64,000 bases of DNA from Bifidobacteriaceae bacterium (GTDB lineage: Bacteria > Actinomycetota > Actinomycetes > Actinomycetales > Bifidobacteriaceae): positions 62,001 through 126,000 of the forward strand of contig JALCQC010000002.1 in the NCBI GenBank assembly GCA_022650895.1, read 5' to 3'. The first letter of the stretch is position 1. Every line of letters starts with the position of its first letter. Both the position numbers and the translations under genes were made by a program. The notes beneath the pieces are model-generated. The model was not told the DNA's origin and made no database searches. It saw only the letters and a program-made list of their open reading frames with translations. Shown here one piece after another: positions 45,125 to 62,985 of the stretch.

Positions 45125-45293
45125 ACCGTCGAAAAGACATAGGCCGAAGGCGATGGCTTCGCGCAGTGAGCCGTCAGTTGGGCCGATTCGTGGTACTGCA
45201 GAGGGACTGGGTAAAATGGCCCCTGTTGCGTCGTTCGGCTGAGGGGCCGCGGGTCCCGTCTGCGTGGGCGCTCGCAGAAATGTGAAGGAGCCC

Positions 45294-46871
45294 ATGAATA
45301 CCGATATCAAGCGCCACGGCAGCAGAAAACTTGAGGTCAACGACGTCATCGTCGTGGAAAAGCCGGTGCTGTGGCGAGCCATAGCAGGAACCGTCGTTGG
45401 CAATCTCATGGAGTGGTATGACGTGGGTGTGTATGGCTACTTGGCCGTCACCATCGGCCAGGTCTTCCTCTCCACGGCTCCGGACACGGTTCAGCGGCTG
45501 TTCTCACTCGGCGTCTTCGCCATCACCTATCTGGCTCGCCCCATCGGCGGCGTTCTGCTGGGATCGTTAGGGGATCGGTTGGGACGTCAACGAGTGCTCG
45601 CCTTCACTCTGCTGGCCATGTCCACCGCAACGTTCCTCATCGGTGTGCTCCCCGATTACGCGCAGGTGGGGGCATGGGCGCCTTTCGCGCTCGCCCTTCT
45701 CAAGCTTCTTCAGGGTTTTTCGACCGGTGGCGAGTATGCGGGTGCCACTACTTTGATTACGGAGTATTCGCCGGATAGGCATCGTGGTTTCTATTCCTCA
45801 CTGTTGGACGTGGGCTCGTACTTGGGCTTCGCGTTGGGTGCCGCGGTGGTGTCCCTCATGCAGATGAACGTTGCGGAGAATATCATGCGGGATTGGGGAT
45901 GGCGCGTTCCCTTCATCCTTGCGCTGCCTTTGGCCGCGGTGGCAATCTACTTCCGTAATCGCGTGGACGATACGCCTATTTACCGTCGCGTGCAGGAAAT
46001 TCAGAAGAGCAGCGTCAGTGCCTCCGCCGTGGAAAACGGTGTCTCTGTTATGGAAAACAGTGCCTCCGCTACGGCAGAGGGTGCGACGGAGCAGTCATCG
46101 TCACAGCGTGACGGGTCCGCAAGCCGGGGGAGTGGACTAAAGATTCTGTTCCGCAGCTACTGGCGCGAGCTGCTGACCGGTTTCACTCTGGTGGCGGCCG
46201 GCAACACCATTGGCTACACCCTGACGTCCTACATGCCCACCTATCTCACCGCCACGCTGCATTACGACATGGCACGCGGCAACCTCGTCACCATACCCAT
46301 CCTGGTGATGGTGGCAGTCTTCATCCCGATCGCGGGTGCGTTGTCCGACCGCTTTGGCCGCAAGGTTCTGCTGGGCATAGGAGCCTTGGGCGGTGCTCTC
46401 ATGGTGATTCCCGCCTTCCTCCTCATGGGAACCGGATCCTTGATGGAGACCTTCTTTGGCCTGTTGCTGTTGGCGATCCCGATGGCGTGCATGGTGGCGA
46501 ACATCGCCTCGACGCTGCCGGCCCTGTTCCCAACGTCCGTACGGTATTCGGGCATGGGCATCTCCTACAATTTTGCGGCCACGCTGTTTGCGGGAACCGC
46601 GCCGCTCATCATGGAGTCGCTGGTTACGGTGACGGGGAATTCCTTGGCGCCCGCGTTCTGGATTGTGTTTACGTCGCTGTGCGGTGTGGTCGCCGCCGTG
46701 CATCTGAAGGAATCTGCGCGCAAGCCCATGCCGGGTGCCATGCCGTCGGTGTCAAGTGATGCAGAGGCCAAGGAATTGGTGGCAACGCAGGACGACAATC
46801 CGGACCTTGACGTACCCGCCATGATGAAAAGCGTTTCGAGAGACCACAAGATCTTCGCTCAGACCCGCTGA
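45294..46871 (+). CDS. MFS transporter, metabolite:H+ symporter (MHS) type, copy 2
   Basis: This paralogue of the previous gene (525 residues) has the same GNLMEWYDVGVYGYLA start of segment 1 and the same order of motifs. The tail after segment 12 also aligns (RKPMPGAMP then a polar stretch). The central cytoplasmic loop contains a distinctive Ser/Ala/Glu-rich insertion (about residues 240-280) with the near-repeat ENGVSVMENSAS. GAAGGAG precedes the ATG. A stretch of 44 bases is identical to copy 1 (45714-45757 against 44042-44085), and the similarity extends well beyond it. A TAAAAT box at 45212 and a GGCCCC/GGGGCC hairpin (45218-45248) suggest its own promoter and leader. Confidence 0.9.
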   Translation: MNTDIKRHGSRKLEVNDVIVVEKPVLWRAIAGTVVGNLMEWYDVGVYGYLAVTIGQVFLSTAPDTVQRLFSLGVFAITYLARPIGGVLLGSLGDRLGRQRVLAFTLLAMSTATFLIGVLPDYAQVGAWAPFALALLKLLQGFSTGGEYAGATTLITEYSPDRHRGFYSSLLDVGSYLGFALGAAVVSLMQMNVAENIMRDWGWRVPFILALPLAAVAIYFRNRVDDTPIYRRVQEIQKSSVSASAVENGVSVMENSASATAEGATEQSSSQRDGSASRGSGLKILFRSYWRELLTGFTLVAAGNTIGYTLTSYMPTYLTATLHYDMARGNLVTIPILVMVAVFIPIAGALSDRFGRKVLLGIGALGGALMVIPAFLLMGTGSLMETFFGLLLLAIPMACMVANIASTLPALFPTSVRYSGMGISYNFAATLFAGTAPLIMESLVTVTGNSLAPAFWIVFTSLCGVVAAVHLKESARKPMPGAMPSVSSDAEAKELVATQDDNPDLDVPAMMKSVSRDHKIFAQTR

Positions 46872-46919
46872 AAATGGTTTGAGACTCGGAAGGGTCATGG
46901 TGTGCGAGGGACCTCCCAA

Positions 46920-46968
46920 CGACAATGGTGGTGTGCGCGGACAGTAGCCACGCACACCACCATTGTCG
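46920..46968. terminator. Bidirectional terminator, 18-bp perfect stem
   Basis: CGACAATGGTGGTGTGCG (46920-46937) and its exact complement (46951-46968) enclose a 13-base loop. It sits between convergent genes and is followed by ATTTTG on the plus strand. Confidence 0.8.
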
Positions 46969-47019
46969 ATTTTGTATCTGTAGTTGTCACCTCACTGGCG
47001 ACGTATTATTCTCTGCTTA

Positions 47020-48033
47020 TTACTTATTGGCAGAGGCAGTCGCAGCGGCGGCAACGGGTCCGGCAGGAGTTGCAGCGTCGAGACCATTGCCCGCAGCCTG
47101 TTGCTTCTCTAGCTTGGTGGCCCAGTACGAGGAGAGAATGGATCCCGAGATGTTGTGCCACACCGAGAAGATGGTGGAGGCAATGGCGGCCTGGGGGCTG
47201 AAGAACTTCAGGGCCAAAGTGGCGCCAAGCGCGGAATCCTGCATGCCCACCTCGAAGGTGATGGCCTTCTGCTGGCGGTAATCCAGCTTGATGATCTTTG
47301 CGAACAGGAAGCCGAGCGCATAACCGCACAGGTTGTGCAGAATCACGACCGGGATGATGAGCAGCGTCTCGGGTTCGAGGAATTGCGCAGCGTTGGCGGC
47401 GAAGACGGCCATGATGATCAGCAGAATGGCGACCTGAGAAACCAACGGGGTGACCTCACGGACCTTCTCAACTTTCTCCTTGAAGATTGTGTGGACCAGA
47501 ACGCCCAGAATGATAGGAATCAGAACGATTTTGGCGGTGTTGAGGAACATCTGCTCGGCAGGAACGTCCACATACTGACCTGCAAGCGTGGACACCAGCA
47601 ATGGCAGCATGACGGGGGCGAGCAGCGTGGAAAGGACGCCAATGGAGACATCGAGCGCTACGTCGCCTCCGGCAAGGAACGCCATCACGTTGGAAGAAGT
47701 TCCGGACGGGCAGCAGCCCACGAGGATCACGCCCGCAGCGGCGGCTCCATCGAGGTGGAAGATGTGGACGAGTGCGAAAGCGATGGCAGGCATGATGATG
47801 TAATGGGCGACGGTGCCCAGAATGACGGGAATGGGGTGCTTGCCGATGCGCTTGAAATCGTCAATGGTGAGGTTGAGGCCCATGCCGAAAATGACCACCA
47901 TCAGCAGGTACGACGTGTACGGCGAGATCGCGGTTCCGATTGACGGCACAAAATAGGAGAAGGCCGCAATGAGAATGACAAAGAGCGTGAAATACTTAGA
48001 CAGACCCGAGCTGAGGGACTTCACTATTTTCAT
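47020..48033 (-). CDS. Bile acid:sodium symporter (BASS) family transporter
   Basis: This is an integral membrane protein of 337 residues with about ten hydrophobic segments. Despite the family name, bacterial members carry various organic anions, including pantoate and pyruvate; the substrate here is unknown. Landmarks are the crossover motifs VGCCPSGTSSNVMAFLAGGDVALDV near residues 103-128 and TFEVGMQDSALGATLA near 255-270, which form the sodium and substrate sites in structures of this family. AAGGAT precedes the ATG. The tail is Ala-rich. It is convergent with the MHS pair and divergent from the CDF gene. Confidence 0.92.
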   Translation of the reverse strand: MKIVKSLSSGLSKYFTLFVILIAAFSYFVPSIGTAISPYTSYLLMVVIFGMGLNLTIDDFKRIGKHPIPVILGTVAHYIIMPAIAFALVHIFHLDGAAAAGVILVGCCPSGTSSNVMAFLAGGDVALDVSIGVLSTLLAPVMLPLLVSTLAGQYVDVPAEQMFLNTAKIVLIPIILGVLVHTIFKEKVEKVREVTPLVSQVAILLIIMAVFAANAAQFLEPETLLIIPVVILHNLCGYALGFLFAKIIKLDYRQQKAITFEVGMQDSALGATLALKFFSPQAAIASTIFSVWHNISGSILSSYWATKLEKQQAAGNGLDAATPAGPVAAAATASANK

Positions 48034-48181
48034 AAAAGATCCTTGTTAATTTATGTGGCGCCGAAGCGCAGTCTGTCCTACGGTTGATCTTTTGGATACG
48101 GTAAGCGCTAACTGCACGATTATAGGCGGTTTATCCGACACTGACGCGGTTGTGTCAGGGAGGAAGACGGGGAGGTATTCG

Positions 48182-49156
48182 ATGACAGAACAACAGTCGA
48201 GCGACTCCGACGTAAAAGACGACTCTGGTGTACCTAGCGCGCAAGGTGCGCCCGTTGACAAGGGAAGCTCACATGTCCGTCGTCTTGGAGTTACGCTGTC
48301 TTTGACGGCCACCGTTCTCGTTGCAGAGGTCGTTGGCGCGATTCTTACCGGCAGCCTTGCATTGCTGGTAGATGCCGGCCACATGCTGACGGATGTCGCC
48401 GTGCTGACGGCCTCCGTCACCGCCGCGGTCCTCATGCGCCGCAAACCCACGGCCACACGAACGTGGGGATGGGACCGTCTCGAGGTGGTGACCGCCGCCG
48501 GCAGTGCGGCAGCGTTACTGCTGGTGGGGCTCTATGCATTGGTGATGGCGGTGCGCAGGCTCTTCTTCGCCCCCGACGCCATTGAGGATCTGCCGTTGCT
48601 GCTCGGTTTCGGCATTCTGGGTTTGGCGACGAATGTGATCTCGATCGTATTGCTCGCCTCCGATCGTGGCGACAACCTCAACATGAGAGCCGCTTTCCTC
48701 GAAGTCCTCAATGACGCTCTGGGGTCCGTGGCCGTCATCGTGGGAGCGGTTGTCATGCTGATTACAGGGTGGTCGGGAGCGGACTCCGTAGCCGGAGCGC
48801 TCATCGCGTTACTGATGGTGCCCCGGGCCTTCAAACTGTTGCACCGCAGCGTGAAGGTCCTCCTGCTGGAGGTGCCAAGCGGACTGGATCTCGAAGAGGT
48901 GCGTGGCCACCTGCAGCGAGTGCCGGGAGTGGAATCGGTTCATGATCTGCATGCAAGTACGGTCCGCACGGGTCTGGTGACGCTCAGTGCCCACGTGGTG
49001 GTGGAAAAAGGGTTGACTCCGGAGCAGTCCGCAGGCGTGCTTGCGGCCATGCAAAAGTGTGTGCGCGAGCACTTCCCGGTCTCCGTTGATCACACCACCT
49101 TCCAGATTGAGCCGGAAGGGTACAACAGTTCTCATCGTGAAAATGTGCACGTATGA
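48182..49156 (+). CDS. Cation diffusion facilitator (CDF) metal exporter
   Basis: This protein exports divalent metals such as zinc in exchange for protons (324 residues, six membrane segments and a C-terminal ferredoxin-like domain). Segment 2 has the metal-site motif DAGHMLTD. In segment 5 the matching motif is EVLND rather than the HxxxD common in zinc transporters, which could change selectivity. A hydrophilic N-terminus of about 35 residues lacks a histidine-rich stretch. GGGGAGG precedes ATG 48182; the frame open to 48053 has no site. It is the last host-like gene before the A+T-rich block. Confidence 0.92.
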   Translation: MTEQQSSDSDVKDDSGVPSAQGAPVDKGSSHVRRLGVTLSLTATVLVAEVVGAILTGSLALLVDAGHMLTDVAVLTASVTAAVLMRRKPTATRTWGWDRLEVVTAAGSAAALLLVGLYALVMAVRRLFFAPDAIEDLPLLLGFGILGLATNVISIVLLASDRGDNLNMRAAFLEVLNDALGSVAVIVGAVVMLITGWSGADSVAGALIALLMVPRAFKLLHRSVKVLLLEVPSGLDLEEVRGHLQRVPGVESVHDLHASTVRTGLVTLSAHVVVEKGLTPEQSAGVLAAMQKCVREHFPVSVDHTTFQIEPEGYNSSHRENVHV

Positions 49157-49192
49157 GACTCTGTGAAAAATATCTGAGTATTTGCCGGAGAA

Positions 49193-50053
49193 TTATGAGA
49201 AATCTGTTTTATCCAGATAGTTCTGCTGCCGAAATGTCTTTGGTGAAACCCCAGTTTCTTCCTTGAATTTGTATGAGAAATAGTGTTCATCTGCAAAGTT
49301 CAGCTTATGAGAGATAGCTTTGACCGGCAACGCGGAATTGCGAAGAAGTTTCCTTGCGAGGTTGAAGCGGTTCGCTGTGTAATACTTGTAGGGCGTTGTC
49401 GAGTATTCGGCAAAGAAATATCGGGTGAGTTGTGAAACAGAGATCCCGATTGCGCTTGCGATGTCTTCTGTTTTCAGATTTGCTTGGATATTGACATCGA
49501 TAAATTCCTTTGCTTTTGTTGCGTATACCGAACTGATGCTGAGTTGTTTCTCGGGATTTTGGGCAAGGGAAGCAAAAAGCTCATGGATGATGAGTGGACC
49601 ATGGAATGCAACATATTTTGGATTCGAAGCATAATCCTTGCACAGCGTAAAGAATGATTTGAAGAGATTATAGAGCGCCCGCTCGGGGTAGTAGAAATGA
49701 TTTTTAAGTCCATATTGTTCATAGAGGGCGTCGCAGAGACTTCCGCCGACGTTCATCCATATTTTTTTATACGGATCTGAGGGGGAAGACCTATAGTCTT
49801 TTTGCATGTGGGGCGGAAGAATGTAAACGTCTCCGCCTTTTGGGAAGAATTGTTCCCCGCCGCAAATGACGTTTCCTTCTCCAGATATGACGTATTCGCA
49901 TACATAGCAGGGAGAATCATCGACATTCCAATGAACTTTATACGTTTTATCGGGGTAGGTGATCCCAACAAGATCGATGAAAAATCTATCTTCTGAGGGT
50001 AGCTGTGTATTTGAGAACGGTAAAATGTCCTCCAAAAATGATGCATTACTCAT
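49193..50053 (-). CDS. AraC-family transcriptional regulator
   Basis: This 286-residue regulator has an N-terminal cupin-like sugar-binding domain (about residues 30-140, with GGEQFFPKGGDVYILPP) and a C-terminal double helix-turn-helix (about 185-280: TEDIASAIGISVSQLTRYF and the second helix around AISHKLNFADEHYFSYKFK). This layout is typical of activators of sugar uptake genes in Firmicutes. It is divergent from the ABC binding-protein gene, with 142 bp between them that would hold its target. Base composition is A+T-rich like the rest of the block. It probably switches on genes 50196-58399 when the sugar is present. Confidence 0.93.
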   Translation of the reverse strand: MSNASFLEDILPFSNTQLPSEDRFFIDLVGITYPDKTYKVHWNVDDSPCYVCEYVISGEGNVICGGEQFFPKGGDVYILPPHMQKDYRSSPSDPYKKIWMNVGGSLCDALYEQYGLKNHFYYPERALYNLFKSFFTLCKDYASNPKYVAFHGPLIIHELFASLAQNPEKQLSISSVYATKAKEFIDVNIQANLKTEDIASAIGISVSQLTRYFFAEYSTTPYKYYTANRFNLARKLLRNSALPVKAISHKLNFADEHYFSYKFKEETGVSPKTFRQQNYLDKTDFS

Positions 50054-50123
50054 ATGACAGGAATCCTCACTTTTTTAGCAGAAAAGCTACCTATATTTAA
50101 ATATTATGTAACTAATCCTCAAA

Positions 50124-50158
50124 TATAATGTTTTTTGCACTTCAAAAAAAGTCGAAGT
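50124..50158 (+). promoter_or_regulatory. Promoter -10 box and inverted repeat before importer D
   Basis: A consensus TATAAT lies at 50124-50129. No good -35 box is seen, which is expected at an activator-dependent promoter. ACTTC (50139-50143) and GAAGT (50154-50158) flank an A-rich centre. Confidence 0.5.
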
Positions 50159-50195
50159 CCAACGAAGGATTTTCGACAGAACGAGGAGAAGGATT

Positions 50196-51533
50196 ATGAA
50201 GAAGAAACTACGCGCTGTTGTATGCGCTATTTCTACTCTCGCGTTAAGCACCGGCATATTGTCGGCATGTGGCAACAGTGCCAGTGGCTCGGAAGGAAGT
50301 GTCTACTATCTGAACCGTAAAGTTGAGGACTTGGATACATGGGTTGAGCTTGGAAAAATGTATCAAGATCAGACAGGTGTACAGGTCAAGGTGACCTCTG
50401 GCGGTACTGATTACGATGCGACTTTGCATTCAGAGCTTGCCAAGAAGAATGCACCGACGATCTATACGCTTGATGGTCCTGGTATGCAGACTACGTGGGA
50501 AAAATATGAGGCAGATCTTTCTGATACTGACGTATATAACCAGCTGACGGACAACTACAAAGGAAATGCTCTTCAAAATAAAGAGGGGAAGCCAGTAGGA
50601 ATCCCATTCGCAGTTGAAAGTTACGGAATTATCTATAATAAAGCGATTCTTCAGAAGTATTTTGATGCTTCATGGTCCAGCATCAAGTCAGTCGATGACA
50701 TCAATAGCTACACGTCGTTGCGGACTGTTGCGGATGAAATTCAAGCGCATAAAGCGGATCTCGGAGTCAAGGGAGCATTTAGTTCTGCAGGTCTTGATGC
50801 TTCTAGCGTATGGCGCTATTACTTCCATATGCCGGCTACTTCTCTCTCATATGAGATGACCGAACGTAATCTTCCCATGAGCAAGGTCGCACCTTCCATC
50901 AAGGGGACGTATATCAAGGAGAATCTCAAGAATCTCTTTGATATGTATCTAACGGATTCTACGGTTTCAGCGAAGACTGTTACTGGGAAAACTATTGATG
51001 ATTCTGTCGCCGAGTTTGCCACAGGGCAGGCGGCTTTCTTCCAGAACGGTGTATGGGCATATAGCCAGATCAAGGGACAGTCTGTAGCAGACAAGGATCT
51101 CGGAGTCCTACCAATTTATATTGGGGCAAAGGGAGAGGAGAACCAGGGGCTCAATCAGGTGATGAGCAATTACTGGGCCATCAATTCAAAGGCATCTTCG
51201 GCCAGTCAAAAAGCTTCAGAGAAATTCCTCAACTGGCTGGTGACAAACAAAGAAGCAAAGAAACTTATCGTGGACAAGATGGGTATGGATGCTCCTTTCA
51301 AGGGCTTTGACGGTGAGGATTACCAAGTTAACAATCCTCTTGCCAACGCAAACCGTGAATATCAGAAAGCGGGAAAGAAGAACGTGCAGACACCCTTCAC
51401 TCCCTCGCACAAGTTCGAAGAAGAATTGACTTCTGATTTAGTCAACTACGCCCAAGGAACTGGCGATTGGAATGCAGTGATCAACACGTATACGAACACT
51501 TGGGCGAAAGAGTACAAGGCGAATTATGAGTGA
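50196..51533 (+). CDS. ABC sugar-importer substrate-binding lipoprotein (importer D)
   Basis: This is a 445-residue MalE-like binding lipoprotein. MKKKLR and a hydrophobic segment end in the lipobox LSAC with the cysteine at residue 25, then a Ser/Gly linker. GGAGAAGGA precedes the ATG. Two permease genes, a YesL-like gene, GH2 and GH31 genes follow on the same strand. Codon use is A+T-rich. The ligand is unknown, though the downstream enzymes suggest an oligosaccharide with beta-linked galactose or glucuronate and an alpha-linked hexose or pentose. Confidence 0.92.
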   Translation: MKKKLRAVVCAISTLALSTGILSACGNSASGSEGSVYYLNRKVEDLDTWVELGKMYQDQTGVQVKVTSGGTDYDATLHSELAKKNAPTIYTLDGPGMQTTWEKYEADLSDTDVYNQLTDNYKGNALQNKEGKPVGIPFAVESYGIIYNKAILQKYFDASWSSIKSVDDINSYTSLRTVADEIQAHKADLGVKGAFSSAGLDASSVWRYYFHMPATSLSYEMTERNLPMSKVAPSIKGTYIKENLKNLFDMYLTDSTVSAKTVTGKTIDDSVAEFATGQAAFFQNGVWAYSQIKGQSVADKDLGVLPIYIGAKGEENQGLNQVMSNYWAINSKASSASQKASEKFLNWLVTNKEAKKLIVDKMGMDAPFKGFDGEDYQVNNPLANANREYQKAGKKNVQTPFTPSHKFEEELTSDLVNYAQGTGDWNAVINTYTNTWAKEYKANYE

Positions 51534-51600
51534 GGCCTAGAACCCTCATCGTCATCATCGATGGTGGCCGCCTGAATTTGCAATGTTGCGAAGACTTTGA

Positions 51601-51629
51601 CGGCCGCCTTCGATCGTTCGGCGAGGCCG
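51601..51629 (+). terminator. GC-rich hairpin between importer D lipoprotein and permease genes
   Basis: CGGCCGCC (51601-51608) pairs with GGC and GGCCG (51620-51629) across a two-base bulge. There is no T-run. As in importers A and C it may reduce read-through from the lipoprotein gene into the permeases. Its GC-richness stands out inside the A+T-rich block. Confidence 0.45.
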
Positions 51630-51672
51630 GACCGTGTAAGCAAATATTGAACGCACGAATAAAGGAAAACGT

Positions 51673-52533
51673 ATGCATGATGTATCTGTTGTAAGCCATG
51701 TTACAAGAAAGTGGTGGTCGCTCTTTACCCTGCCAATAGTTCTTGCCTTTGCCTTCGGTTTTATTGTCCCCTTTATCATCGGTATCTATCTCAGTTTTAC
51801 GACATTCACCACTATCACGGATTCTGAATGGGTGGGAATGGACAATTACATTGAGGTCTTCAAGGATCCAGTTTTCCTCCACGCCCTTTGGTTCACCGCT
51901 CTCTATGCAGTTGTTACTACGGTGATTATCAATGTGATTTCGTTCTTCCTTGCCTATATGCTGAATACTGCGATGCGGGGAGCGAAGTTCTTCAGATCCA
52001 TTTTCTTCCTCCCTAATCTCATTGGCGGTATTATTCTTGGCTACATTTGGCAGCTGTTGCTAAATGGGATTCTGTCACATTGGGATTTGAGCCTGACTTT
52101 ATCGGCAAAATATGGTTTCTGGGGAATTGTCATTGTCAGTTGCTGGCAGTCCATTGGATACGAGATGATCATTTATCTCGCCGGTCTCCAGAATGTTCCA
52201 CAGGAACTCATGGAAGCTGCGGCAGTCGATGGTGCCTCCTCCTCTCAGAGTGTCTTCCATGTTCTCTTGCCTCTCATGATGCCAAGCATCACTGTCTGTA
52301 CTTTTCTGACGCTGACGGGTGGTTTTAAGGTGTTTGACCAAAACCTGGCATTGACGGGCGGACAGCCATCAAATACATCGGCGATGCTGGCACTCGACAT
52401 TTACAAAACCTTCTATCAAGGCGTTGGAACAGAGGGTTTGGGGCAGGCGAAGGCAGTCATGTTCCTTATCATCGTGGCCTTGGTCGCGGTTCTTCAAAAT
52501 AAGCTCACTACGAGCAAGGAGGTGGAAGCATGA
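51673..52533 (+). CDS. ABC sugar-importer permease, MalF type (importer D)
   Basis: This is a permease subunit (286 residues) with six hydrophobic segments and the EAA loop at LMEAAAVDGAS. The N-terminus is short compared with the permeases of importers A to C. AAAGGA precedes the ATG. Its stop overlaps the start of the next permease by four bases. Confidence 0.92.
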   Translation: MHDVSVVSHVTRKWWSLFTLPIVLAFAFGFIVPFIIGIYLSFTTFTTITDSEWVGMDNYIEVFKDPVFLHALWFTALYAVVTTVIINVISFFLAYMLNTAMRGAKFFRSIFFLPNLIGGIILGYIWQLLLNGILSHWDLSLTLSAKYGFWGIVIVSCWQSIGYEMIIYLAGLQNVPQELMEAAAVDGASSSQSVFHVLLPLMMPSITVCTFLTLTGGFKVFDQNLALTGGQPSNTSAMLALDIYKTFYQGVGTEGLGQAKAVMFLIIVALVAVLQNKLTTSKEVEA

Positions 52534-53366
52534 ATATGAAGAGGAGAATTAGCGGTGTTTGGACGGTAATCTTTGCGATTATCTCGGTAATTTGGATGTT
52601 TCCCATCTTGATGGTCATCATGAATTCCTTCAAGAAGAAGACAGCAATATCGATTTCGCCCTTTGCGCCTCCAACAAAAGAAACTTTTGCTGGGCTGAGC
52701 AACTATGCGGAGGCGTTAGAGAAAACAGATTTCTTGTGGAGCTTTGTGTGGAGCTTATTCATCACGGTGGGATCTGTGCTTCTCATGCTCGTCTTTACGG
52801 TGATGTGTGCCTGGTGGATCGTACGCGCCAACAATGTTTATGCGAAGTTCATCTACCTTCTTTTCCTTATCAGTATGGTGGTTCCTTTCCAGATGGTGAT
52901 GTTCCCTCTGTCAAAGATGTCTGACATGGCGGGGCTCAATACTCCATGGGGGTTGTGGCTTCTCTATCTTGGATTCAGCCCGGGCTTGCCAGTGTTCATC
53001 TTCACCGGCGTAGTGAAGTCATTGCCGTCTGCCGTCGAAGAGGCTGCGATGATTGATGGTGCCAGTGTGCCGCGCATATTCTTCAATGTCGTGTTGCCGT
53101 TGATGCGCTCTTCCATCGTTTCGGTCGCCATTTTGCAGACAATGTGGGTATGGAATGACTTCTTGCTTCCATATGTCACGCTTGATTTGCAGCAATTCAA
53201 GACGATTCCTATTGCAGTGCAGGTATTTAAGGGTAGTTACGGAACAACTGATTGGGGAGCAATGATGGGGTGTCTTGTGCTCACCATCATTCCAATTTTG
53301 GTGTTCTACATGCTCTGTCAGAAACAGATTATCTCCGGTATCACTGCGGGTGCCGTTAAGGGTTAA
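52530..53366 (+). CDS. ABC sugar-importer permease, MalG type (importer D)
   Basis: This is the second permease of importer D (278 residues), starting at an ATGA overlap with the first and preceded by AAGGAGG. It has six hydrophobic segments and the EAA loop at VEEAAMIDGAS. The YesL-like gene follows after 11 bases. There is again no ATPase. Confidence 0.92.
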   Translation: MNMKRRISGVWTVIFAIISVIWMFPILMVIMNSFKKKTAISISPFAPPTKETFAGLSNYAEALEKTDFLWSFVWSLFITVGSVLLMLVFTVMCAWWIVRANNVYAKFIYLLFLISMVVPFQMVMFPLSKMSDMAGLNTPWGLWLLYLGFSPGLPVFIFTGVVKSLPSAVEEAAMIDGASVPRIFFNVVLPLMRSSIVSVAILQTMWVWNDFLLPYVTLDLQQFKTIPIAVQVFKGSYGTTDWGAMMGCLVLTIIPILVFYMLCQKQIISGITAGAVKG

Positions 53367-53377
53367 GGCTTACGAAT

Positions 53378-53995
53378 ATGACCTCATGGTTTTCACAGGA
53401 ATCATTTCTTGTCCGGGCTTTTAACCACTTTGCTGACATGGCTTTTCTCAATGTCCTCATTGTGGTTACAAGCCTGCCGATTGTCACAGTCGGCGCTTCT
53501 CTCAGTGCCGGCTATTCAACGGCACGTAAAGAAGCAGAAGGATATGGGAAGATGGCGCGGAACTATTTCCGTGCATTCAAACAGAACTTTATGAAGGCGA
53601 CAGTGCTATGGCTCGTCTACCTTGCGGCAGGGGCCGTGGTGATCTTTGCCTGGTTCTCCATCAATTCGACGGCTTTTCGCATCCCTCTTGTTCTTCTGGC
53701 GGTGGTGTGGGCAATTTCCTTCGTGTGGGTGTGGCCATTGCAGGCAAGATTCGAGAATAAAATTTCAGCGACCATATGGAATTCTGTATATCTGGGGATT
53801 TCAAAGATCGGGAGCACTGTAGGGGTAGCGGCTGTTGTCTTCGGTTTCTTCGCGATATTCGCTCTCGCGCTTACGTATGCTCCCCAGGCACTTTTCCTCT
53901 TAATGGTGATGGGTTTCGGCTTAATGATCTTTATGACCGTTGGAATTTTTGAAAGAGCTTTCACCCCGCTCGTTCGTGGCACGGCAACGGAATAA
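53378..53995 (+). CDS. DUF624 / YesL-like membrane protein
   Basis: This is a 205-residue membrane protein of the same family as the gene at 9243, with about five hydrophobic segments and the conserved N-terminal LPIVTVGASLSAGYST region. It is co-directional and nearly contiguous with the importer D permeases, as in the B. subtilis yes cluster, where YesL lies with an AraC-like regulator and an ABC importer. Its biochemical role is not known for any member to my knowledge; a function in transport or sensing is suggested by context only. Confidence 0.85.
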   Translation: MTSWFSQESFLVRAFNHFADMAFLNVLIVVTSLPIVTVGASLSAGYSTARKEAEGYGKMARNYFRAFKQNFMKATVLWLVYLAAGAVVIFAWFSINSTAFRIPLVLLAVVWAISFVWVWPLQARFENKISATIWNSVYLGISKIGSTVGVAAVVFGFFAIFALALTYAPQALFLLMVMGFGLMIFMTVGIFERAFTPLVRGTATE

Positions 53996-54058
53996 ACACA
54001 AGTCCTTTGAAAGATTGAAGAGTGGGCACAAGCATGCCCAAAAGAATGGAGTTTGGTA

Positions 54059-55891
54059 ATGGAAAAAGATAACCTCAATCAGTTCGCAACGATTCCACGT
54101 CCGGAATACCCACGTCCGCAACTATCGCGAGATGAGTGGTTGAATCTCAATGGAACGTGGGAATTTGAGTTCGATCCGGGTGATTCGGGTTTTGAACGGG
54201 GACTCGTGAACAAAAAGAAACTCGATAATTCAATTATTGTTCCCTTCGTTCCAGAATCCGAGCTATCGGGCATTGGGAACACCGACTTCCATGAGGCAGT
54301 TTGGTACCACCGCTCCGTTCAAGTGCCGGAAGCATGGTCTTCTCAAAGACTTATTCTCCACTTCGGTGCCGTAGATCACGATGCGACGGTTTGGGTTAAT
54401 GGTACTGAGGTAACGAGGCATAGAGGTGGCTTTACGTCATTTTCGGCGGATATTACTGACGCTGTCGCCGGGAAAGCGGAGTTTTCGCTTACTGTGCGCG
54501 CAAGGGATAGCAAAAAAGATTTTCAGGCGAGGGGTAAGCAGGCGACTGAGTATGAGAATTCCTCTGTTTTCTATACACGGAGTACTGGAATCTGGCAGAC
54601 CGTCTGGCTTGAACCTGTTGGTGAAGTGTACATTCAACAGCTCAAAGTTACTCCCGACGTGGGGAGGAACGCGTTTAATGTAGTTGCCCGTTTGACGGGG
54701 AATTCTTCTGCCTACCGTCTCTCTGCATCTTTGAAAAATACCGAAGGAATTGTGCTCTCCCAAGCCGATGCAGAGTTGGGCAAAGACTTGAATCCCTCTG
54801 TAACTCTTAAGGTCCCCGTAGATGAAGTACACCTTTGGGAGCCTGGGAATCCTTACCTTTACCCCATAGAATTCATCATTTCCGATAGAGAGGGGAAGGC
54901 AATAGACACTGTTAACAGCTATGCCGGTCTTCGTTCTATCTCGATTGAAGGAACTTCTGTCAAAGTCAATGGGAAGCCTCTTTTCCAGAGGCTTGTTCTT
55001 GACCAGGGTTATTGGCCTGAGTCTTTGATGACAGCCCCAAGTGACGAGGCACTTGTCAAAGACATTAAACTCTCTATGCAAGCTGGATTCAATGGTGCAC
55101 GTATGCACCAGAAGGTATTTGAAGAACGCTACATTTATCATGCAGACCGGCTTGGATACCTTGTATGGGGAGAGTTCGGTGATTGGGGAGTCTCTACGGG
55201 CGCGGGGCCGAAGGGCAACAACCAGCACCCGACCGCTTCGTTCATTACACAATGGATCGAGGCAGTTGAGAGAGACTATTCACACCCCGCCATTGTTGGT
55301 TGGTGTCCGTTGAATGAGACGTATCAAAAGCTGACAGATCAAATCACGCAGCTTGATGACATCACTCATGGCATGTTCGCCGCTACCAAGGCAATTGATG
55401 CGTCGCGGCCCGTTCTTGACGCGAGTGGATATTCGCACAGGGTCTCCGATTCGGATATTTATGATTCTCATCTCTATGAACAGAATCCCGAAAAATTTGA
55501 AGAGTTGGTAGGGAAAGATGCTGAGAAGATGTATGAGAATGATCTCGACGGCGATCAGATCTCGGTTCATTACAAGGGACAGCCATATTTCGTGAGTGAG
55601 TACGGCGGTATCTGGTGGAATGCCGAGAAGGCGGCAATTGCATCCGGGAAAGATCAGGAACATTCGTGGGGTTACGGAGAACGCGTCACGACGATCGAAG
55701 AATTCTACGAGCGGTTTGAGAAGCTGACGGAGGTCCTTGTCTCAAATCCGAAAATGTTCGGGTATTGCTATACGGAACTAACTGACGTCTTCCAAGAAGA
55801 GAATGGCATTTTTTCCTTTGATCGAACTCCTAAGTTCGATATAGATCGAATTCGTGAGATACAAGAAGGGCTTGTTAAGAAGTATCGATGA
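54059..55891 (+). CDS. GH2 glycosidase (beta-galactosidase/beta-glucuronidase type)
   Basis: This is a retaining GH2 enzyme of 610 residues with the three core domains: sugar-binding jelly roll, immunoglobulin-like and TIM barrel. It lacks the extra C-terminal domains of LacZ, so it is close in size to GusA and short galactosidases. The acid/base is E420 in PLNETYQ and the nucleophile is E514 in VSEYGG. There is no signal peptide. ATG 54059 follows TGGAG by eight bases; TTG 54053 is an in-frame alternative. It lies 63 bp after the YesL-like gene. Substrate choice between galactoside and glucuronide cannot be made by eye. Confidence 0.88.
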   Translation: MEKDNLNQFATIPRPEYPRPQLSRDEWLNLNGTWEFEFDPGDSGFERGLVNKKKLDNSIIVPFVPESELSGIGNTDFHEAVWYHRSVQVPEAWSSQRLILHFGAVDHDATVWVNGTEVTRHRGGFTSFSADITDAVAGKAEFSLTVRARDSKKDFQARGKQATEYENSSVFYTRSTGIWQTVWLEPVGEVYIQQLKVTPDVGRNAFNVVARLTGNSSAYRLSASLKNTEGIVLSQADAELGKDLNPSVTLKVPVDEVHLWEPGNPYLYPIEFIISDREGKAIDTVNSYAGLRSISIEGTSVKVNGKPLFQRLVLDQGYWPESLMTAPSDEALVKDIKLSMQAGFNGARMHQKVFEERYIYHADRLGYLVWGEFGDWGVSTGAGPKGNNQHPTASFITQWIEAVERDYSHPAIVGWCPLNETYQKLTDQITQLDDITHGMFAATKAIDASRPVLDASGYSHRVSDSDIYDSHLYEQNPEKFEELVGKDAEKMYENDLDGDQISVHYKGQPYFVSEYGGIWWNAEKAAIASGKDQEHSWGYGERVTTIEEFYERFEKLTEVLVSNPKMFGYCYTELTDVFQEENGIFSFDRTPKFDIDRIREIQEGLVKKYR

Positions 55892-55954
55892 ACGGAAACG
55901 CAATGTGTATGGGATCAATCGTGATTTTCAAGAAGTAAATGAGTGAGGGATGAC

Positions 55955-58399
55955 ATGGAAGATCTGAAAAGGTTCTCTTTGAAGAGCCTGGGCGCGCACC
56001 CCGCTATGTGCCCGGATGAGACGATTCAAGGCGATAGATGGCGTATCGGTATCTTAAGTGATTGTCTTGTCCGTTTTGAGTGGTCAGACGATGGAATCTT
56101 TGAAGATAGGGCATCGCAGTTTGCCCTCAACCGTAATTTTGCGCACCCAGATTTTTCTGTGTACGAGGAGTATGGCCGACTTGCCATTAAGACGGATAAG
56201 CTCGAGATCTTGTACGATCGAAGTCATTTCAGCCAGCGCGGACTATCAGTGAGACTGAAGGATTCCGGTCAGGTATGGCACTATGGTGATGTGCCAGAAG
56301 GAAACCTAGGTGGCACTGCCCGAACCCTCGATAAAGCGAATGGTGAGATTTCTGTTGGGGCTGGCGTGCTGTCCCGTGAAGGGTGGGCCACCATCGATGA
56401 CTCTGATACCGATGTTCTTGAAGAACTTTCTTCTGTTGATGGTGAGGACAATCCTTTTGGAACATGGGTTGTGCCACGGAGAGAACATACCCAGGATCTC
56501 TATCTCTTTGCCTATGGTCATGAATATAAGCAAGCTATTTCCGACTATTACAAACTCTCGGGTCCAACTCCCTTATTGCCTCGATTTGTCTTTGGAAATT
56601 GGTGGAGCCGTTACCATAAGTACTCAGAGAAAGAGTACCTCCAGCTGATGGATCGTTTTGAGAATGAGAAGATTCCTTTCTCCACTGCCGTCCTCGACAT
56701 CGACTGGCATAAGGTTGACATCGATAAAAAATATGGTTCTGGCTGGACGGGATATAGCTGGAATAGAGAGCTTTTCCCGGATCCACAGAGATTTCTGAAA
56801 GAACTACATCGTCGCGGTCTGAAGGTTACGCTGAACCTGCATCCGGCAGATGGCGTGCGTGCGTTTGAAGATGATTATGATGCTATTGCTCAGGAAATGG
56901 GGATCGATCCGGCATTGGGCAAGACCATAGAATTCGATGCCGCATCCCCTAAATTCATGGAAGCCTACCTTCGTTTTCATCACAGGATGGAAGAGCAGGG
57001 GGTCGATTTCTGGTGGGTGGATTGGCAGCAAGGAAACACTTCGAGGCATGGGAATATCGATCCCCTATGGATGCTGAATCACATGCACTACATCGATTCC
57101 GGGCGGAAAGGTCAGCGTCCGCTCACGTTTTCAAGGTATGCGGGTCCTGGTTCTCACCGGTACCCCATAGGTTTTTCTGGGGACACAGTTGTTTCGTGGC
57201 AGTCCTTACGGTTCCAGCCAAAGTTCACCTCTATGGCAAGCAATATCGGTTACGGATGGTGGAGTCATGATATTGGCGGTCATATGTATGGCTATAGAGA
57301 TGAGGAGTTGGAAGCTCGGTGGTACCAACTGGGTGTCTTCAGCCCTATCAACCGTCTTCACTCTGCGGTCTCTCCCTTTAACAGCAAGGAGCCGTGGAAT
57401 TTTTCAGGTGAAATACGGGAAACGATGACGGAAGCTCTGCGTCTTCGGCACAGCCTCATTCCCTATCTTTACTCGATGAATTGGCGTGCCGCTGATGAGG
57501 GGTTGCCATTGGTGGAGCCCCTGTACTGGTCGTACCCAGAGATATCTGAAGCGTATTCTTTCCAAAACGAGTATCTCTTCGGAACGGAGCTGCTGGTGAG
57601 CCCCATTACCGAAAAGACAAGTTCTGATACGAAGAAAGCACGTACGGCTGTTTGGTTTCCTCATGGCGCTTGGTTCGATCTTTTCACGGGGCGTCAGTAC
57701 GAGGCCCCAGATGTGGACGGAAAGCAGATGGAGGTATGGAGAGACATTAAACAAATTCCAGTTTTCGCCAAGGCTGGAGCCATCATCCCTCTTCAGTCGT
57801 GGGACAGCAATTCTGTTCGTAATCCAAGTGAACTGGAGCTAGTCGTTTTCCCGCAAGCGACAAATTCATTTGATCTCATCGAGGACGATGGTCATGCGTC
57901 AACCCTCGATGATGCGTCAATCACTCATATTGAAAATCAGCGAGACAAACATCATTTGAGCATCACTCATCGGGGACCGAATGAGAGCATTCCGTCAAAG
58001 CGTAAGTGGAAAGTTGTTTTCCGCGGTGTTTCTGATGGGGTTGTCCATGTATTCGTGGATTCCCAAGAAGTGCCTTTTTCTCAGGGATACGATGCAGAAA
58101 AACTGAGTCTTGCTGTTGAGATTCCAGATGTTCCTGCTTCTTCTGAACTTGTCGTGGAACTTTCGCCTGAGGTATATGTTGTAGAAGATAGACGAGTGCA
58201 AGATAGCTTTGATGTCCTCTTCGATTCTCAGATGTATTACGAGTTAAAGGAGAAAGCTTACAACGCTATCAAGAGTGAAGGAATCAAAGCACTGCCACAA
58301 CTGTATACGTATACAGATGACTCCGTGGAAATGAATCAACACATACCGGACAATGTCATTCATGCTTTAGTTGAAGTATTGACGCGAGGAGATAAATAA
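55955..58399 (+). CDS. GH31 alpha-glycosidase with C-terminal extension
   Basis: This is a GH31 enzyme of 814 residues, cytoplasmic. The nucleophile is D356 in WWVDWQQG, which differs from the KTDFGER of the two YicI-type xylosidases, so it belongs to another GH31 branch. The conserved RYAGPGSHRYPIGFSGD contains the acid/base aspartate. After the distal beta-domain (about residue 690) an extension of roughly 120 residues has no recognised domain. ATG 55955 follows GAGGGAT; GTG 55943 is an in-frame alternative. It is the last gene of the A+T-rich cassette. An alpha-glucosidase or alpha-xylosidase role is likely. Confidence 0.87.
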   Translation: MEDLKRFSLKSLGAHPAMCPDETIQGDRWRIGILSDCLVRFEWSDDGIFEDRASQFALNRNFAHPDFSVYEEYGRLAIKTDKLEILYDRSHFSQRGLSVRLKDSGQVWHYGDVPEGNLGGTARTLDKANGEISVGAGVLSREGWATIDDSDTDVLEELSSVDGEDNPFGTWVVPRREHTQDLYLFAYGHEYKQAISDYYKLSGPTPLLPRFVFGNWWSRYHKYSEKEYLQLMDRFENEKIPFSTAVLDIDWHKVDIDKKYGSGWTGYSWNRELFPDPQRFLKELHRRGLKVTLNLHPADGVRAFEDDYDAIAQEMGIDPALGKTIEFDAASPKFMEAYLRFHHRMEEQGVDFWWVDWQQGNTSRHGNIDPLWMLNHMHYIDSGRKGQRPLTFSRYAGPGSHRYPIGFSGDTVVSWQSLRFQPKFTSMASNIGYGWWSHDIGGHMYGYRDEELEARWYQLGVFSPINRLHSAVSPFNSKEPWNFSGEIRETMTEALRLRHSLIPYLYSMNWRAADEGLPLVEPLYWSYPEISEAYSFQNEYLFGTELLVSPITEKTSSDTKKARTAVWFPHGAWFDLFTGRQYEAPDVDGKQMEVWRDIKQIPVFAKAGAIIPLQSWDSNSVRNPSELELVVFPQATNSFDLIEDDGHASTLDDASITHIENQRDKHHLSITHRGPNESIPSKRKWKVVFRGVSDGVVHVFVDSQEVPFSQGYDAEKLSLAVEIPDVPASSELVVELSPEVYVVEDRRVQDSFDVLFDSQMYYELKEKAYNAIKSEGIKALPQLYTYTDDSVEMNQHIPDNVIHALVEVLTRGDK

Positions 58400-58626
58400 T
58401 CTTTAGTTTCTTCCTTTTGTCGGTAAAGAAGTTGACTTGAACTGGAGCGGTGGTCTTGGCATTGAGAAGTAACGGCCTCTACTCTAGCTGCTGACTTCTT
58501 AGCTTGCCGAAGATTCGTGGAGAACTCAAAGACAGGCTTCCTGCTGAGCGATAGACTGAATGCGGAATGATATGACGTTTGGCCACGGTCGTCGCCAGGT
58601 CGACGGCCTCACGCGAAAGGCAAGTT

Positions 58627-60069
58627 ATGAGCGAAAAAGCAAATATCGGTGTCGTCGGATTGGCGGTCATGGGCAGTAACTTGGCCCGTAACCTTGCACA
58701 CCATGGCAACACCGTGGCAGTTTTCAACCGTTCCTACGGTAGGACCGAAACTCTCATCACGGAACATGGCAGCGAAGGGAACTTCGTTCCGGCAAAGACC
58801 ATTGAGGAGTTCGTGGCGTCCCTGAGCGTTCCGCGCACCGCCATCATCATGGTGAAGGCGGGAGATCCCACCGAATCTATGATCAACGCATTGGCGGATG
58901 CCATGGAACCCGGCGACATCATCATTGACGGCGGCAACACTTACTTCAAGGACACCATGCGCCGCGAGAAGGAGATCCGCGCTCGCGGACTTCACTTCGT
59001 TGGCTGTGGCATCTCTGGTGGCGAAGAGGGCGCACTCAACGGTCCGTCTATGATGCCCGGCGGTTCCGAGGAATCATGGAAGACTCTCGGTCCCATCCTC
59101 AAGTCCATCGCCGCCGTCGCCGAGGGTGAGCCCTGCGTGACGCATATCGGCGAGAACGGTGCCGGCCACTTCGTCAAGATGGTGCACAACGGCATCGAGT
59201 ACGCCGACATGCAGCTGATTGCGGAAAGCTACGACCTGCTGCGCCGTGGTCTGGGACTATCTCCATCCGAAATCGGCGATATTTTCGAGGAGTGGAACAA
59301 GGGAGAACTCAACTCCTATCTCATCGAGATCACTGCCGAGGTTCTGCACCAGATGGATGCCAAGACGGGCAAGCCGTTCATTGACATCGTGGTGGACCAC
59401 GCCGGCATGAAGGGAACCGGAACCTGGACCGTGCAGACTGCTTTGAGCCTGGCTGTCCCCGTCACCGGCATCGCCGAGGCGGTGTTCGCCCGCGGACTCT
59501 CCAGCCGCACCGAGCAGCGTGCCGAGGCCGCCGAAAAGCACTTGGCTGGTCCTGAACCACGTATCGAGGTCAAGGACCGCGAGGCCTTCATCGAAGACAT
59601 TCGTCAGGCGCTGTATGCCTCCAAGATCATCGCCTATGCGCAGGGATTCGACGAGATCACCGAGGGTGCCAAGGAATATGACTGGAAGATCGACCTGGGT
59701 GCCGTCGCCCGCATCTGGCGCGGTGGCTGCATCATCCGCGCAAAGTTCCTCAACCGCATCTCCGAGGCCTACGACAAGGGTGAGATGACTTCCTCGCTCG
59801 TGTTTGATCCCTACTTCCGCACGTCGCTGGAGAAGGCTCAGGACTCGTGGCGTCGCGTCGTCTCAATGGCTGCGCTCAACGGAGTTCCCGCGCCGGCGTT
59901 CTCGAGCTCGCTGTCCTATTACGATGGCCTGCGCTCTGACCGTCTGCCCGCCGCCCTCATCCAAGGTCAGCGTGACTTCTTCGGTGCCCACACCTATGGA
60001 CGCGTGGACGAGCCGGGAGCTTTCCACACGCTGTGGGGCGAGGAAGGCCGTAAGGAAATCAACGCCTGA
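58627..60069 (+). CDS. gnd: 6-phosphogluconate dehydrogenase, decarboxylating
   Basis: This cytoplasmic enzyme oxidises 6-phosphogluconate to ribulose-5-phosphate and CO2, making NADPH. Of its 480 residues, the N-terminal dinucleotide-binding motif is GLAVMGSNLARNLA (about residues 10-23), with FNRS after strand 2. The substrate motif GISGGEEGALNGPSMMPGG spans about residues 127-145, and the catalytic lysine and histidine lie in KMVHNGIEYADMQ. It ends in the C-terminal helical tail. ATG 58627 follows GAAAGG; the frame open to 58579 is not family sequence. Host-like base composition resumes here, and a strong terminator follows. Confidence 0.97.
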   Translation: MSEKANIGVVGLAVMGSNLARNLAHHGNTVAVFNRSYGRTETLITEHGSEGNFVPAKTIEEFVASLSVPRTAIIMVKAGDPTESMINALADAMEPGDIIIDGGNTYFKDTMRREKEIRARGLHFVGCGISGGEEGALNGPSMMPGGSEESWKTLGPILKSIAAVAEGEPCVTHIGENGAGHFVKMVHNGIEYADMQLIAESYDLLRRGLGLSPSEIGDIFEEWNKGELNSYLIEITAEVLHQMDAKTGKPFIDIVVDHAGMKGTGTWTVQTALSLAVPVTGIAEAVFARGLSSRTEQRAEAAEKHLAGPEPRIEVKDREAFIEDIRQALYASKIIAYAQGFDEITEGAKEYDWKIDLGAVARIWRGGCIIRAKFLNRISEAYDKGEMTSSLVFDPYFRTSLEKAQDSWRRVVSMAALNGVPAPAFSSSLSYYDGLRSDRLPAALIQGQRDFFGAHTYGRVDEPGAFHTLWGEEGRKEINA

Positions 60070-61733: not shown

Positions 61734-61766
61734 CCGATGAGGTTGTTATCTCTACAATCTCATCGG
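61734..61766. terminator. Hairpin between convergent GH27 and LacI genes
   Basis: CCGATGAG (61734-61741) and CTCATCGG (61759-61766) form a perfect eight-base stem that overlaps the LacI stop codon. ATCTTTG follows on the plus strand. A T-rich GGGCTTTTTTAG stretch at about 61711 may also serve the GH27 gene. Confidence 0.5.
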
Positions 61767-62788
61767 ATCTTTGTTGATTCTCTTTGAACAAGTCTGAAAT
61801 TGGCCGTGGCACTTACTGCGGTGTCTGGGGTAGTGGGATCGTCAATCCGTGCAGTGAGGAGTTGAATGGCTTTCTTGGCCAGATCCGCCATATCGACTTC
61901 GATGGTAGTGAGGGAAGGCACTGAGAATTCTCCTTCGTTGATGCCGTCGAAGCCAATTACCTGAACCTCATTCGGAACGCTGATTCCAAGATCCTTTAAA
62001 CCACGCAGGGCTCCCAGCCCCATGGAATCCGTCATACAGAAAAGTCCGTCAAAGTGTCTTCCCTGAGAAACAATGTCATGGATGGTACTTCGAGCAGCAA
62101 GAGTTGACCAGTCTGGTGTATCGATAATATTTGATTCTGGGAATTCCATAGCTTCTTCCGAAAAAGCCTTCTTGCATCCGGCGAGGCGTCGAGCGGAGAC
62201 GCTTCTGTACTTTGAGGCATCGGTTAATGCTAAGGGATTGGCCCCAATGATCAAGATGTCTTTACAACCGCACGCAAGAAGATGTTTTACTGCCGCGTAA
62301 GCGCCATCCTCGCAGGGGGTGAAGACGGTGTCGAAAGAGAGTTTGCGGGCTGTATCGTCGAGAAGAACAATGGGCTTTCCTCCACTAAGCTCTTGAATTT
62401 CTTCGCTTGTAACTTTTCCGGGGCTAAATATTGTTCCATCGCACAGTTGACTTGTCACTTTTTGCAGAATTGAGATTTCGCTCTCTTTTGAGTTTGCAGT
62501 TTGCTGGATAATAGCCTGGAAATCGTTGTGTGAGGCCTCCTTGGAAAGCGCAGCGGCCATCTCGGAGGGATAAGGCTTGTCGAGCTCGAAGATGGCAACT
62601 CCGATGATCCCGCTTTTCCCGGAGCGTAGGCTTTTTGCAGAGAGATTAGTGGTGTATTGAAGTTCTTTCGCAACTTTGAGAACGCGTTCCGCAGTTTTGG
62701 GAATGATGCGAGGGTCCCCGCGGAGCGCGTAGGATGCGGTTGCTCGCGATACTCCCGCAGCTTTTGCGACATCACTCATAGTGACCAT
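61760..62788 (-). CDS. LacI-family transcriptional regulator
   Basis: This is a LacI-type regulator of 342 residues. The helix-turn-helix begins MSDVAKAAGVSRATASYALRG, followed by the hinge and an effector-binding domain with the usual FCMTDSMGLGALRGL and VIGFDG landmarks. I chose the ATG at 62788 because GAGGAA lies upstream at good distance; the frame continues to 62833 but a start there would add residues before the canonical N-terminus. It is divergent from the binding-protein gene at 62986, and two matching operators lie between, so it probably represses both its own gene and that importer. Codon use is moderately A+T-rich. Confidence 0.93.
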   Translation of the reverse strand: MVTMSDVAKAAGVSRATASYALRGDPRIIPKTAERVLKVAKELQYTTNLSAKSLRSGKSGIIGVAIFELDKPYPSEMAAALSKEASHNDFQAIIQQTANSKESEISILQKVTSQLCDGTIFSPGKVTSEEIQELSGGKPIVLLDDTARKLSFDTVFTPCEDGAYAAVKHLLACGCKDILIIGANPLALTDASKYRSVSARRLAGCKKAFSEEAMEFPESNIIDTPDWSTLAARSTIHDIVSQGRHFDGLFCMTDSMGLGALRGLKDLGISVPNEVQVIGFDGINEGEFSVPSLTTIEVDMADLAKKAIQLLTARIDDPTTPDTAVSATANFRLVQRESTKIR

Positions 62789-62841
62789 TGGGGATTCCTC
62801 ACTTGCTCTGTTTTCGAATTTCATTACTATCATATTCCTGA

Positions 62842-62855
62842 ATTGACACGATTCA
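62842..62855. promoter_or_regulatory. Operator site 1, TTGA-N6-TCAA
   Basis: TTGA and TCAA flank CACGAT, 54 bp upstream of the LacI start. It shares the TTGA-N6-TCAA frame and a central CGA with site 2, which points to the same repressor. Confidence 0.65.
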
Positions 62856-62883
62856 AATCAGCGTGTATAAAGTTGTTTGTAAG

Positions 62884-62905
62884 CGAATTGAATCGAGTCA
62901 ATTCG
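62884..62905. promoter_or_regulatory. Operator site 2, CGAATTGA-N6-TCAATTCG
   Basis: Eight-base perfect arms flank ATCGAG. The site lies 81 bp before the importer E lipoprotein gene. The centres of sites 1 and 2 are 46 bp apart. Confidence 0.7.
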
Positions 62906-62985
62906 GTTTAAAAGCTTGCATTTGCGCCAGTGATGTCGCACAGACAACAAGTTCCGACGAAAGTGTCGAAACAGGGAGGAACACA

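Follow-up and report, generated by a model that had tools for sequence, protein, structure and literature searches.

Where did a compact, A+T-rich set of sugar genes in a member of the Bifidobacteriaceae come from, and what might it be used for? The window analyzed here (64,000 nt; G000:C2:62001-126000) belongs to a host genome of 2.06 Mb in 32 contigs and was compared with the genomes of the genus (three, namely G000 and its congeners G001 and G002) and of the family (189). The original prediction had described a seven-gene cassette acquired from elsewhere, with a layout recalling the yes/ytc clusters of Firmicutes. All seven genes were recovered by gene calling where they had been placed, and searches of Pfam and NCBIfam, concordant with each other, returned the families that had been proposed. 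An AraC-family regulator on the minus strand is followed on the plus strand by genes for an SBP, two permeases, a DUF624 protein, a GH2 and a GH31 (49193-58399). Gaps of only -4 to 139 bases within the plus-strand run suit a single operon reaching from the SBP gene to the GH31 gene. The features of the locus and its edges are as follows.

46872-58541, no strand: genome-specific segment of ~11.7 kb, which neither congener has between MFS and gnd
46920-46968, no strand: palindrome with 21-bp arms (inverted repeat, 95% complementary) where the MFS and SBF genes converge; from its sequence, a probable two-way terminator
47020-48033, minus strand: SBF/BASS-type symporter (Pfam SBF, 147 bits), G+C normal
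48053-49156, plus strand: CDF-type cation efflux gene, so called from reading the sequence, G+C normal
49193-50053, minus strand: AraC-family regulator, cupin sensor plus HTH (Pfam AraC_binding, HTH_18)
50054-50195, no strand: divergent promoter region, of which 50061-50128 aligns ungapped to the AraC-GH2 promoter region of G094
50196-51533, plus strand: lipoprotein SBP of an ABC importer (SBP_bac_8, 87 bits; lipobox LSAC read in the sequence)
51673-52533, plus strand: ABC importer permease 1 (BPD_transp_1), 65-66% to G053, G069 and G144
52530-53366, plus strand: ABC importer permease 2 (BPD_transp_1), 64-65% to G053, G069 and G144, with a 4-base overlap with permease 1
53378-53995, plus strand: DUF624/YesL/MusI-like membrane protein (DUF624, 46 bits; below the cut-off of the MusI model)
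54053-55891, plus strand: GH2 of group III, GH2_19-like (best solved relative 7xyr, 466 bits)
55943-58399, plus strand: GH31 of the GH31_u1 group (best solved relative 7wj9, 694 bits)
58542-58575, plus strand: element upstream of gnd at the right edge of the segment, conserved in all three genus members

Comparison with strains lacking the block had been proposed as a check in the original prediction; here it was made with the two congeners. In G001 (contig C6) and G002 (contig C3), the MFS and gnd genes are adjacent on a single contig each with no gene between them, so the ~11.7 kb that separates MFS (45264-46871) from gnd (58579-60069) in the window is specific to this genome. The congener flanks around the site are 71-81% identical to the window, and the short MFS-gnd gap of the congeners carries GCGATAGACT...GATATGACGTTT, the window counterpart of which lies at 58542-58575. 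The empty site supports the claim that the cassette was acquired at this position, with the polarity of insertion versus loss resting on these two relatives. Conservation of the cassette by vertical descent in all relatives, which would have spoken against acquisition, was not observed, as neither congener carries it at the MFS-gnd site. The proposed extent of the block required revision: the A+T-rich stretch does run from 49193 to 58399, but the genome-specific segment begins at ~46872, right after the MFS stop codon, and ends at ~58541, and it therefore adds the G+C-normal SBF and CDF genes on the far side of the compositional edge at 49193. That no integrase, tRNA or flanking repeat is visible held up as well. 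The window contains no tRNA gene, and no recognized integrase, transposase or other mobile-element gene and no long flanking repeat were detected in 46872-58541; direct repeats were sought at both junctions and none was convincing. A plasmid search gave no DNA match and, at the protein level, distant GH31s only.

On the far side of gnd, the genes lying before pgl differ among the three genomes, comprising GH27 plus a LacI-ABC-GH43 block in the window, a GH2 remnant plus the LacI-ABC-GH43 block in G002, and a sulfatase-MFS-LacI-GH2 set in G001. The truncated GH2 that follows gnd in G002, a C-terminal remnant, was considered as a relic of the cassette and rejected, since its sequence resembles the intact GH2 of G001, which is a different gene. 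Of the two genes that precede the cassette in the segment, both are absent from G001 and G002 at E<=1e-60. The closest relative of the SBF gene is a copy in G096 (81% identity), all others reaching at most ~66%, and the CDF gene is present in 153 of the 189 family genomes, with its true start probably downstream of the called one because the alignments to most relatives begin only near residue 60. The two were not found adjacent in the other genomes compared, which makes the whole segment unlike an ancestral unit. The simplest reading is that the MFS-gnd site has gathered genes more than once.

The base composition of the cassette was the basis on which it had been singled out. G+C content is 0.469 in 49193-58399 and 0.582 in the remaining window, and codon usage, assessed as GC3 for the window genes only, is 0.47-0.61 in the seven cassette genes versus 0.68-0.75 in flanking genes. 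The base composition of the cassette differs from that of its surroundings, as anticipated. The contrast is real but not unique, as the DNA becomes A+T-rich again from ~61.7 kb. There, from 61.7 to 67.3 kb by window coordinates, the LacI-ABC-GH43 block matches the cassette in A+T-richness, mostly 0.44-0.51 G+C per kb. Its first 2.1 kb are ~71% identical at the DNA level to G002, where the block occupies the same site and is A+T-rich too (0.49-0.55). Because this neighboring block is common to a congener, low G+C is no proof of recent transfer here. A+T-richness neither dates nor sources the cassette and is, alone, weak evidence.

The GH31 protein is 52.5% identical over 491 residues to LlGH31_u1 (PDB 7WJ9), an α-1,3-glucosidase of Lactococcus lactis (PMC9061262). 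In the alignment with that enzyme, the nucleophile (D360) and the acid/base (D414) are kept; H300 and F411 are equivalent to His280 and Phe391, and the equivalents of Gln343 and His427 are also present. D360, D414, H300 and F411 are invariant in eight family sequences, and the window protein carries the catalytic Asp pair and the -1 subsite residues of GH31_u1. The plus-subsite contacts associated with nigerose specificity in LlGH31_u1 are the Tyr99 loop, Gln343, His427 and Ser455 (PMC9061262). At these positions the window protein retains the Gln and His, shows an alignment gap at the Tyr99 loop and carries Ala475 instead of Ser455, so the linkage specificity may differ from that of LlGH31_u1. 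No signal peptide was seen by eye. The protein is accordingly predicted from its sequence to be an intracellular GH31_u1-type enzyme, α-1,3-glucosidase-like. As in the GH31_u1 clusters described by others (PMC9061262), the gene adjoins an ABC importer; unlike them, the regulator here is AraC instead of LacI, and GH2 and DUF624 genes are present. GH31 matches were found in 132 of 161 good family genomes, the best at 55-58% identity, and in other Actinomycetes at 46-57% over shorter stretches (E<=1e-100 in 13 of 394 other genomes). In G001 and G002 this type of GH31 is absent anywhere, with distant matches only (E 1e-17 or weaker than 1e-18). Maximum-likelihood analysis placed the window protein with the Bifidobacteriaceae-type sequences at 100/98, and those of Agathobacter, Enterococcus and Lactococcus fell outside. 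Its exact position within the clade is unsure owing to a long branch (0.89) and an unusual residue make-up.

The closest solved relative of the GH2 protein, 7XYR, has been placed in GH2_19, and enzymes of GH2 group III act on furanosides, namely β-D-Galf and α-L-Araf (PMC12243196). N421-E422 (the NE motif), E516 and T574 are kept and invariant in the alignment; the nucleophile is retained and the Thr of group III replaces the -1 Trp. The NE pair and the Thr typical of group III would fit a GH2_19 assignment (PMC12243196), although 7XYR itself has TV where the window protein has NE. No secretion signal was seen by eye, as in most of GH2_19 (PMC12243196). We predict an intracellular, GH2_19-like exo-furanosidase. 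The protein is 57% identical to its counterpart in G052; with named relatives, which among the matches listed come mostly from Actinomycetota and Chloroflexota, it shares 50-61% identity. A scan of genome contigs with the GH2 alignment placed no Firmicute among the best 80 relatives listed, and in the GH2 tree the window protein sits on a long branch (0.78). A GH31_u1-like gene (46-50%) lies within 9 kb of the GH2 gene in four of the 80 named GH2 loci listed, all from Streptomyces, where the ABC permeases belong to a different importer and LacI replaces AraC. That the two enzyme types are independently paired beyond the family supports the view that GH2 and GH31 act on a common substrate.

The SBP of the importer is 54-61% identical to proteins of G053, G069, G144, G090, G108, G083 and G104 and, judged by sequence, the best relatives found for the SBP, AraC and DUF624 proteins are those of Bifidobacteriaceae. 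The DUF624 protein scored 90.4 bits on the MusI model (NCBIfam NF052431), the cut-off of which is 160, and for this reason we label it MusI-like and not MusI; it is probably an importer accessory. DUF624/MusI-like proteins are frequent beside importers in the family. A search for related loci starting from this protein gave no result, as the exact-peptide patterns were too strict. MusEFGK2I-type maltose importers (Corynebacterium; Gardnerella, PMC10101108) likewise have a single operon encoding an SBP, a pair of permeases and a DUF624/MusI-like protein; apart from the lower MusI score, the window importer differs from them in being joined to GH2 and GH31. No ATPase gene occurs within the operon. 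The same has been reported for importers of bifidobacteria (PMC4746261) and of Gardnerella, its MusEFGK2I-type operons included (PMC10101108), and a shared MsmK-like ATPase encoded elsewhere has been proposed for the bifidobacterial ones (PMC4746261).

The distribution of these genes in the family falls into two sets. The locus L066 of G069 consists of LacI followed by SBP-perm1-perm2-DUF624-GH31, which is the order of the cassette without GH2; L065 of G053 has the same genes with the GH31 first, on the other side, and L067, L068 and L069 are near versions of this LacI importer-GH31 unit. The AraC regulator occurs at E<=1e-25 in nine of the 189 family genomes, host included, and in neither G001 nor G002; its best identity is 45% when the family and the GH2 loci are searched. 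The GH2 is present in seven of the eight other family genomes that have this AraC (hypergeometric P ~5e-12, with genomes taken as independent although they are related). In six of them (G094, G095, G096, G111, G132 and G152) the two genes are divergent neighbors ~190-300 bp apart, and in G052 AraC heads an SBP-perm-perm-GH2-GH78 run with an unrelated importer (GH78 read by eye). The promoter region also bears on this pair. The 68 bp at 50061-50128 align ungapped to the AraC-GH2 region of G094 with a score of 18, a value that none of 200 shuffles equaled (maximum, 14). For G095 the similarity was less marked, with 12 of 200 shuffles scoring at least that high, and none was seen to G052, G132 or G152, making the match strong for one of the five regions compared. 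No operator conserved across all AraC-GH2 regions was found; G094 and, weakly, G095 resemble the window. None of the listed family genomes has this GH2 and this GH31 closer together than 15 kb, their pairing in one operon was unseen in the family members compared, and no intermediate form of the assembly occurred in any other genome compared. Judging from distribution, the cassette seems to have arisen by the addition of an AraC-promoter-GH2 set to an importer-GH31 unit. The combination of AraC, GH2 and GH31 is unseen in the family members examined; the system itself is ordinary. Like the local carbohydrate regulons of Bifidobacterium, which are mosaic across species (PMC4746261, PMC5928203), it combines a local regulator, an ATPase-less ABC importer and glycosidases, the regulator here being AraC where LacI is usual.

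We also considered a recent transfer of the entire block from a Firmicute of low G+C. The yes/ytc clusters of Bacillus have AraC, an ABC importer and YesL/DUF624 near glycosidases and serve rhamnogalacturonan breakdown. Kinship with them was not borne out. The likeness is limited to those generic parts, the AraC here is of a small cupin type, the relatives of the cassette are in Actinomycetota, and a domain search of the seven genes revealed no rhamnogalacturonan lyase or unsaturated galacturonyl hydrolase (PL11, GH105). The gene-by-gene search for a donor did identify relatives for the genes of the cassette; they point to Bifidobacteriaceae and Actinomycetota, not to Firmicutes. The A+T-rich composition and GC3, the absence of the cassette from both congeners, and a broadly similar Agathobacter unit (LacI, then SBP-perm-perm-GH31) would all fit a Firmicute donor. 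That unit is, however, devoid of DUF624, GH2 and AraC, and the GH31 is 47% identical to its Agathobacter and 45% to its Enterococcus counterpart versus 55-58% to the best family copies, with which it groups. Given in addition the lack of Firmicutes among the best GH2 relatives listed and of any plasmid DNA match, we regard such a transfer as very unlikely. A chimeric join or a contaminant in the draft assembly appears still more improbable; an abrupt change of composition in an assembly of 32 contigs with an estimated completeness of 88% might suggest one, but a single 185-kb contig carries both flanks, the estimated contamination is 0.27% and the relatives of the genes lie within Bifidobacteriaceae.

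A further alternative is that the operon is old in the family, was already carried by the genus ancestor, and was retained in this genome but lost at this site from G001 and G002, with A+T-richness as a lasting trait of sugar loci; it deserves more weight, although we consider it unlikely. It would agree with the basal position of the window GH31 in the Bifidobacteriaceae-type set, as expected of an old resident, with the sharing of the A+T-rich LacI-ABC-GH43 block with G002, and with the CDF gene, which is common across the family and missing in both congeners. The complete absence of this GH31 type and of the AraC from both congeners argues against it, as does the failure to find SBF and CDF as neighbors elsewhere. 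We therefore favor, with reasonable though not strong confidence, a mosaic AraC-controlled oligosaccharide operon of bifidobacterial type, built into the MFS-gnd gap from a source within the family. An unsampled low-G+C member of the Bifidobacteriaceae is the most likely source and a Firmicute is disfavored; the long branches of the window GH31 and GH2 would also allow an unsampled donor from elsewhere.

Under the mosaic reading, an SBP-perm-perm-DUF624-GH31 unit, LacI-controlled elsewhere, would have gained AraC and GH2 from a separate pair. The SBP would capture an oligosaccharide, to be imported by the permeases and the DUF624 protein with a shared ATPase encoded elsewhere. In the cytoplasm, the GH2 would strip off Galf or Araf as a furanosyl unit and the GH31 an α-1,3-linked glucose, and sugar-bound AraC would activate the divergent promoter. 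Intracellular cleavage is predicted since neither glycosidase has a visible signal peptide and the SBP has a lipobox. Our guess at the substrate is an oligosaccharide with α-1,3-glucosyl and furanosyl units. A dedicated pathway for an oligosaccharide with both α-1,3-glucosyl and galactofuranosyl or arabinofuranosyl units, for example a piece of a microbial exopolysaccharide or of a fungal wall glycan, arising when a GH31 importer unit of LacI type had an AraC-GH2 module swapped in, is a speculative proposal that we hold to be rather doubtful.

If true, it would give the Bifidobacteriaceae a substrate class so far unassigned to them in the literature examined. The cassette also cautions that low G+C alone is a poor indicator of recent transfer in these genomes. 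Taken together, it illustrates the modular assembly of a bifidobacterial sugar operon, from an importer with GH31 on one side and AraC with its promoter and GH2 on the other, and it offers a testable guess at the substrate for two glycosidase groups that are little studied in gut actinobacteria.

The gap between gnd, the right neighbour of the A+T-rich sugar cassette, and pgl is variable among the source genome and its two congeners, G001 and G002. Features outside the cassette include:

Window 1-31563: large glycan locus
G000:C28:3000-7200 (source genome): second, paralogous SBP-permease-permease-DUF624 unit
L082:11784-12167 (G002): C-terminal GH2 remnant, 127 aa, after gnd
L081:8931-10847 (G001): intact GH2, 638 aa, near gnd/pgl
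Window 61760-64000, continuing to 9273 in L077 past the window's right end: A+T-rich LacI-SBP-permease-permease-GH43 block

The G002 remnant resembles the intact G001 GH2 in sequence, and this likeness indicates sugar-gene decay at the same variable site. GH27 and pgl-opcA-zwf flank the GH43 block, whose first 2.1 kb occupy the same place in G002 at ~71% DNA identity, so the block is not recent in the source genome. The second importer unit shares 39–66% identity with the cassette's own and has a counterpart in G002 (L064).

The glycan locus encodes GH5, GH42, α-L-fucosidase, a BD-FAE esterase, GH43, GH94 and two YicI-like GH31 enzymes (YicI being their best solved relatives, at 783–855 bits), together with a beta-lactamase-fold protein, LacI, DUF624, ROK, ABC genes, ABC permeases and one more ABC importer. 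It looks like a locus for xyloglucan-oligosaccharide use.

The SBF symporter left of the cassette (47020-48033, minus strand) is 81% identical to its copy in G096, of the same family, well above every other family copy. G096 also carries an AraC-GH2 pair ~20 kb from its SBF gene on the same contig. Recent exchange between the two lineages is possible.
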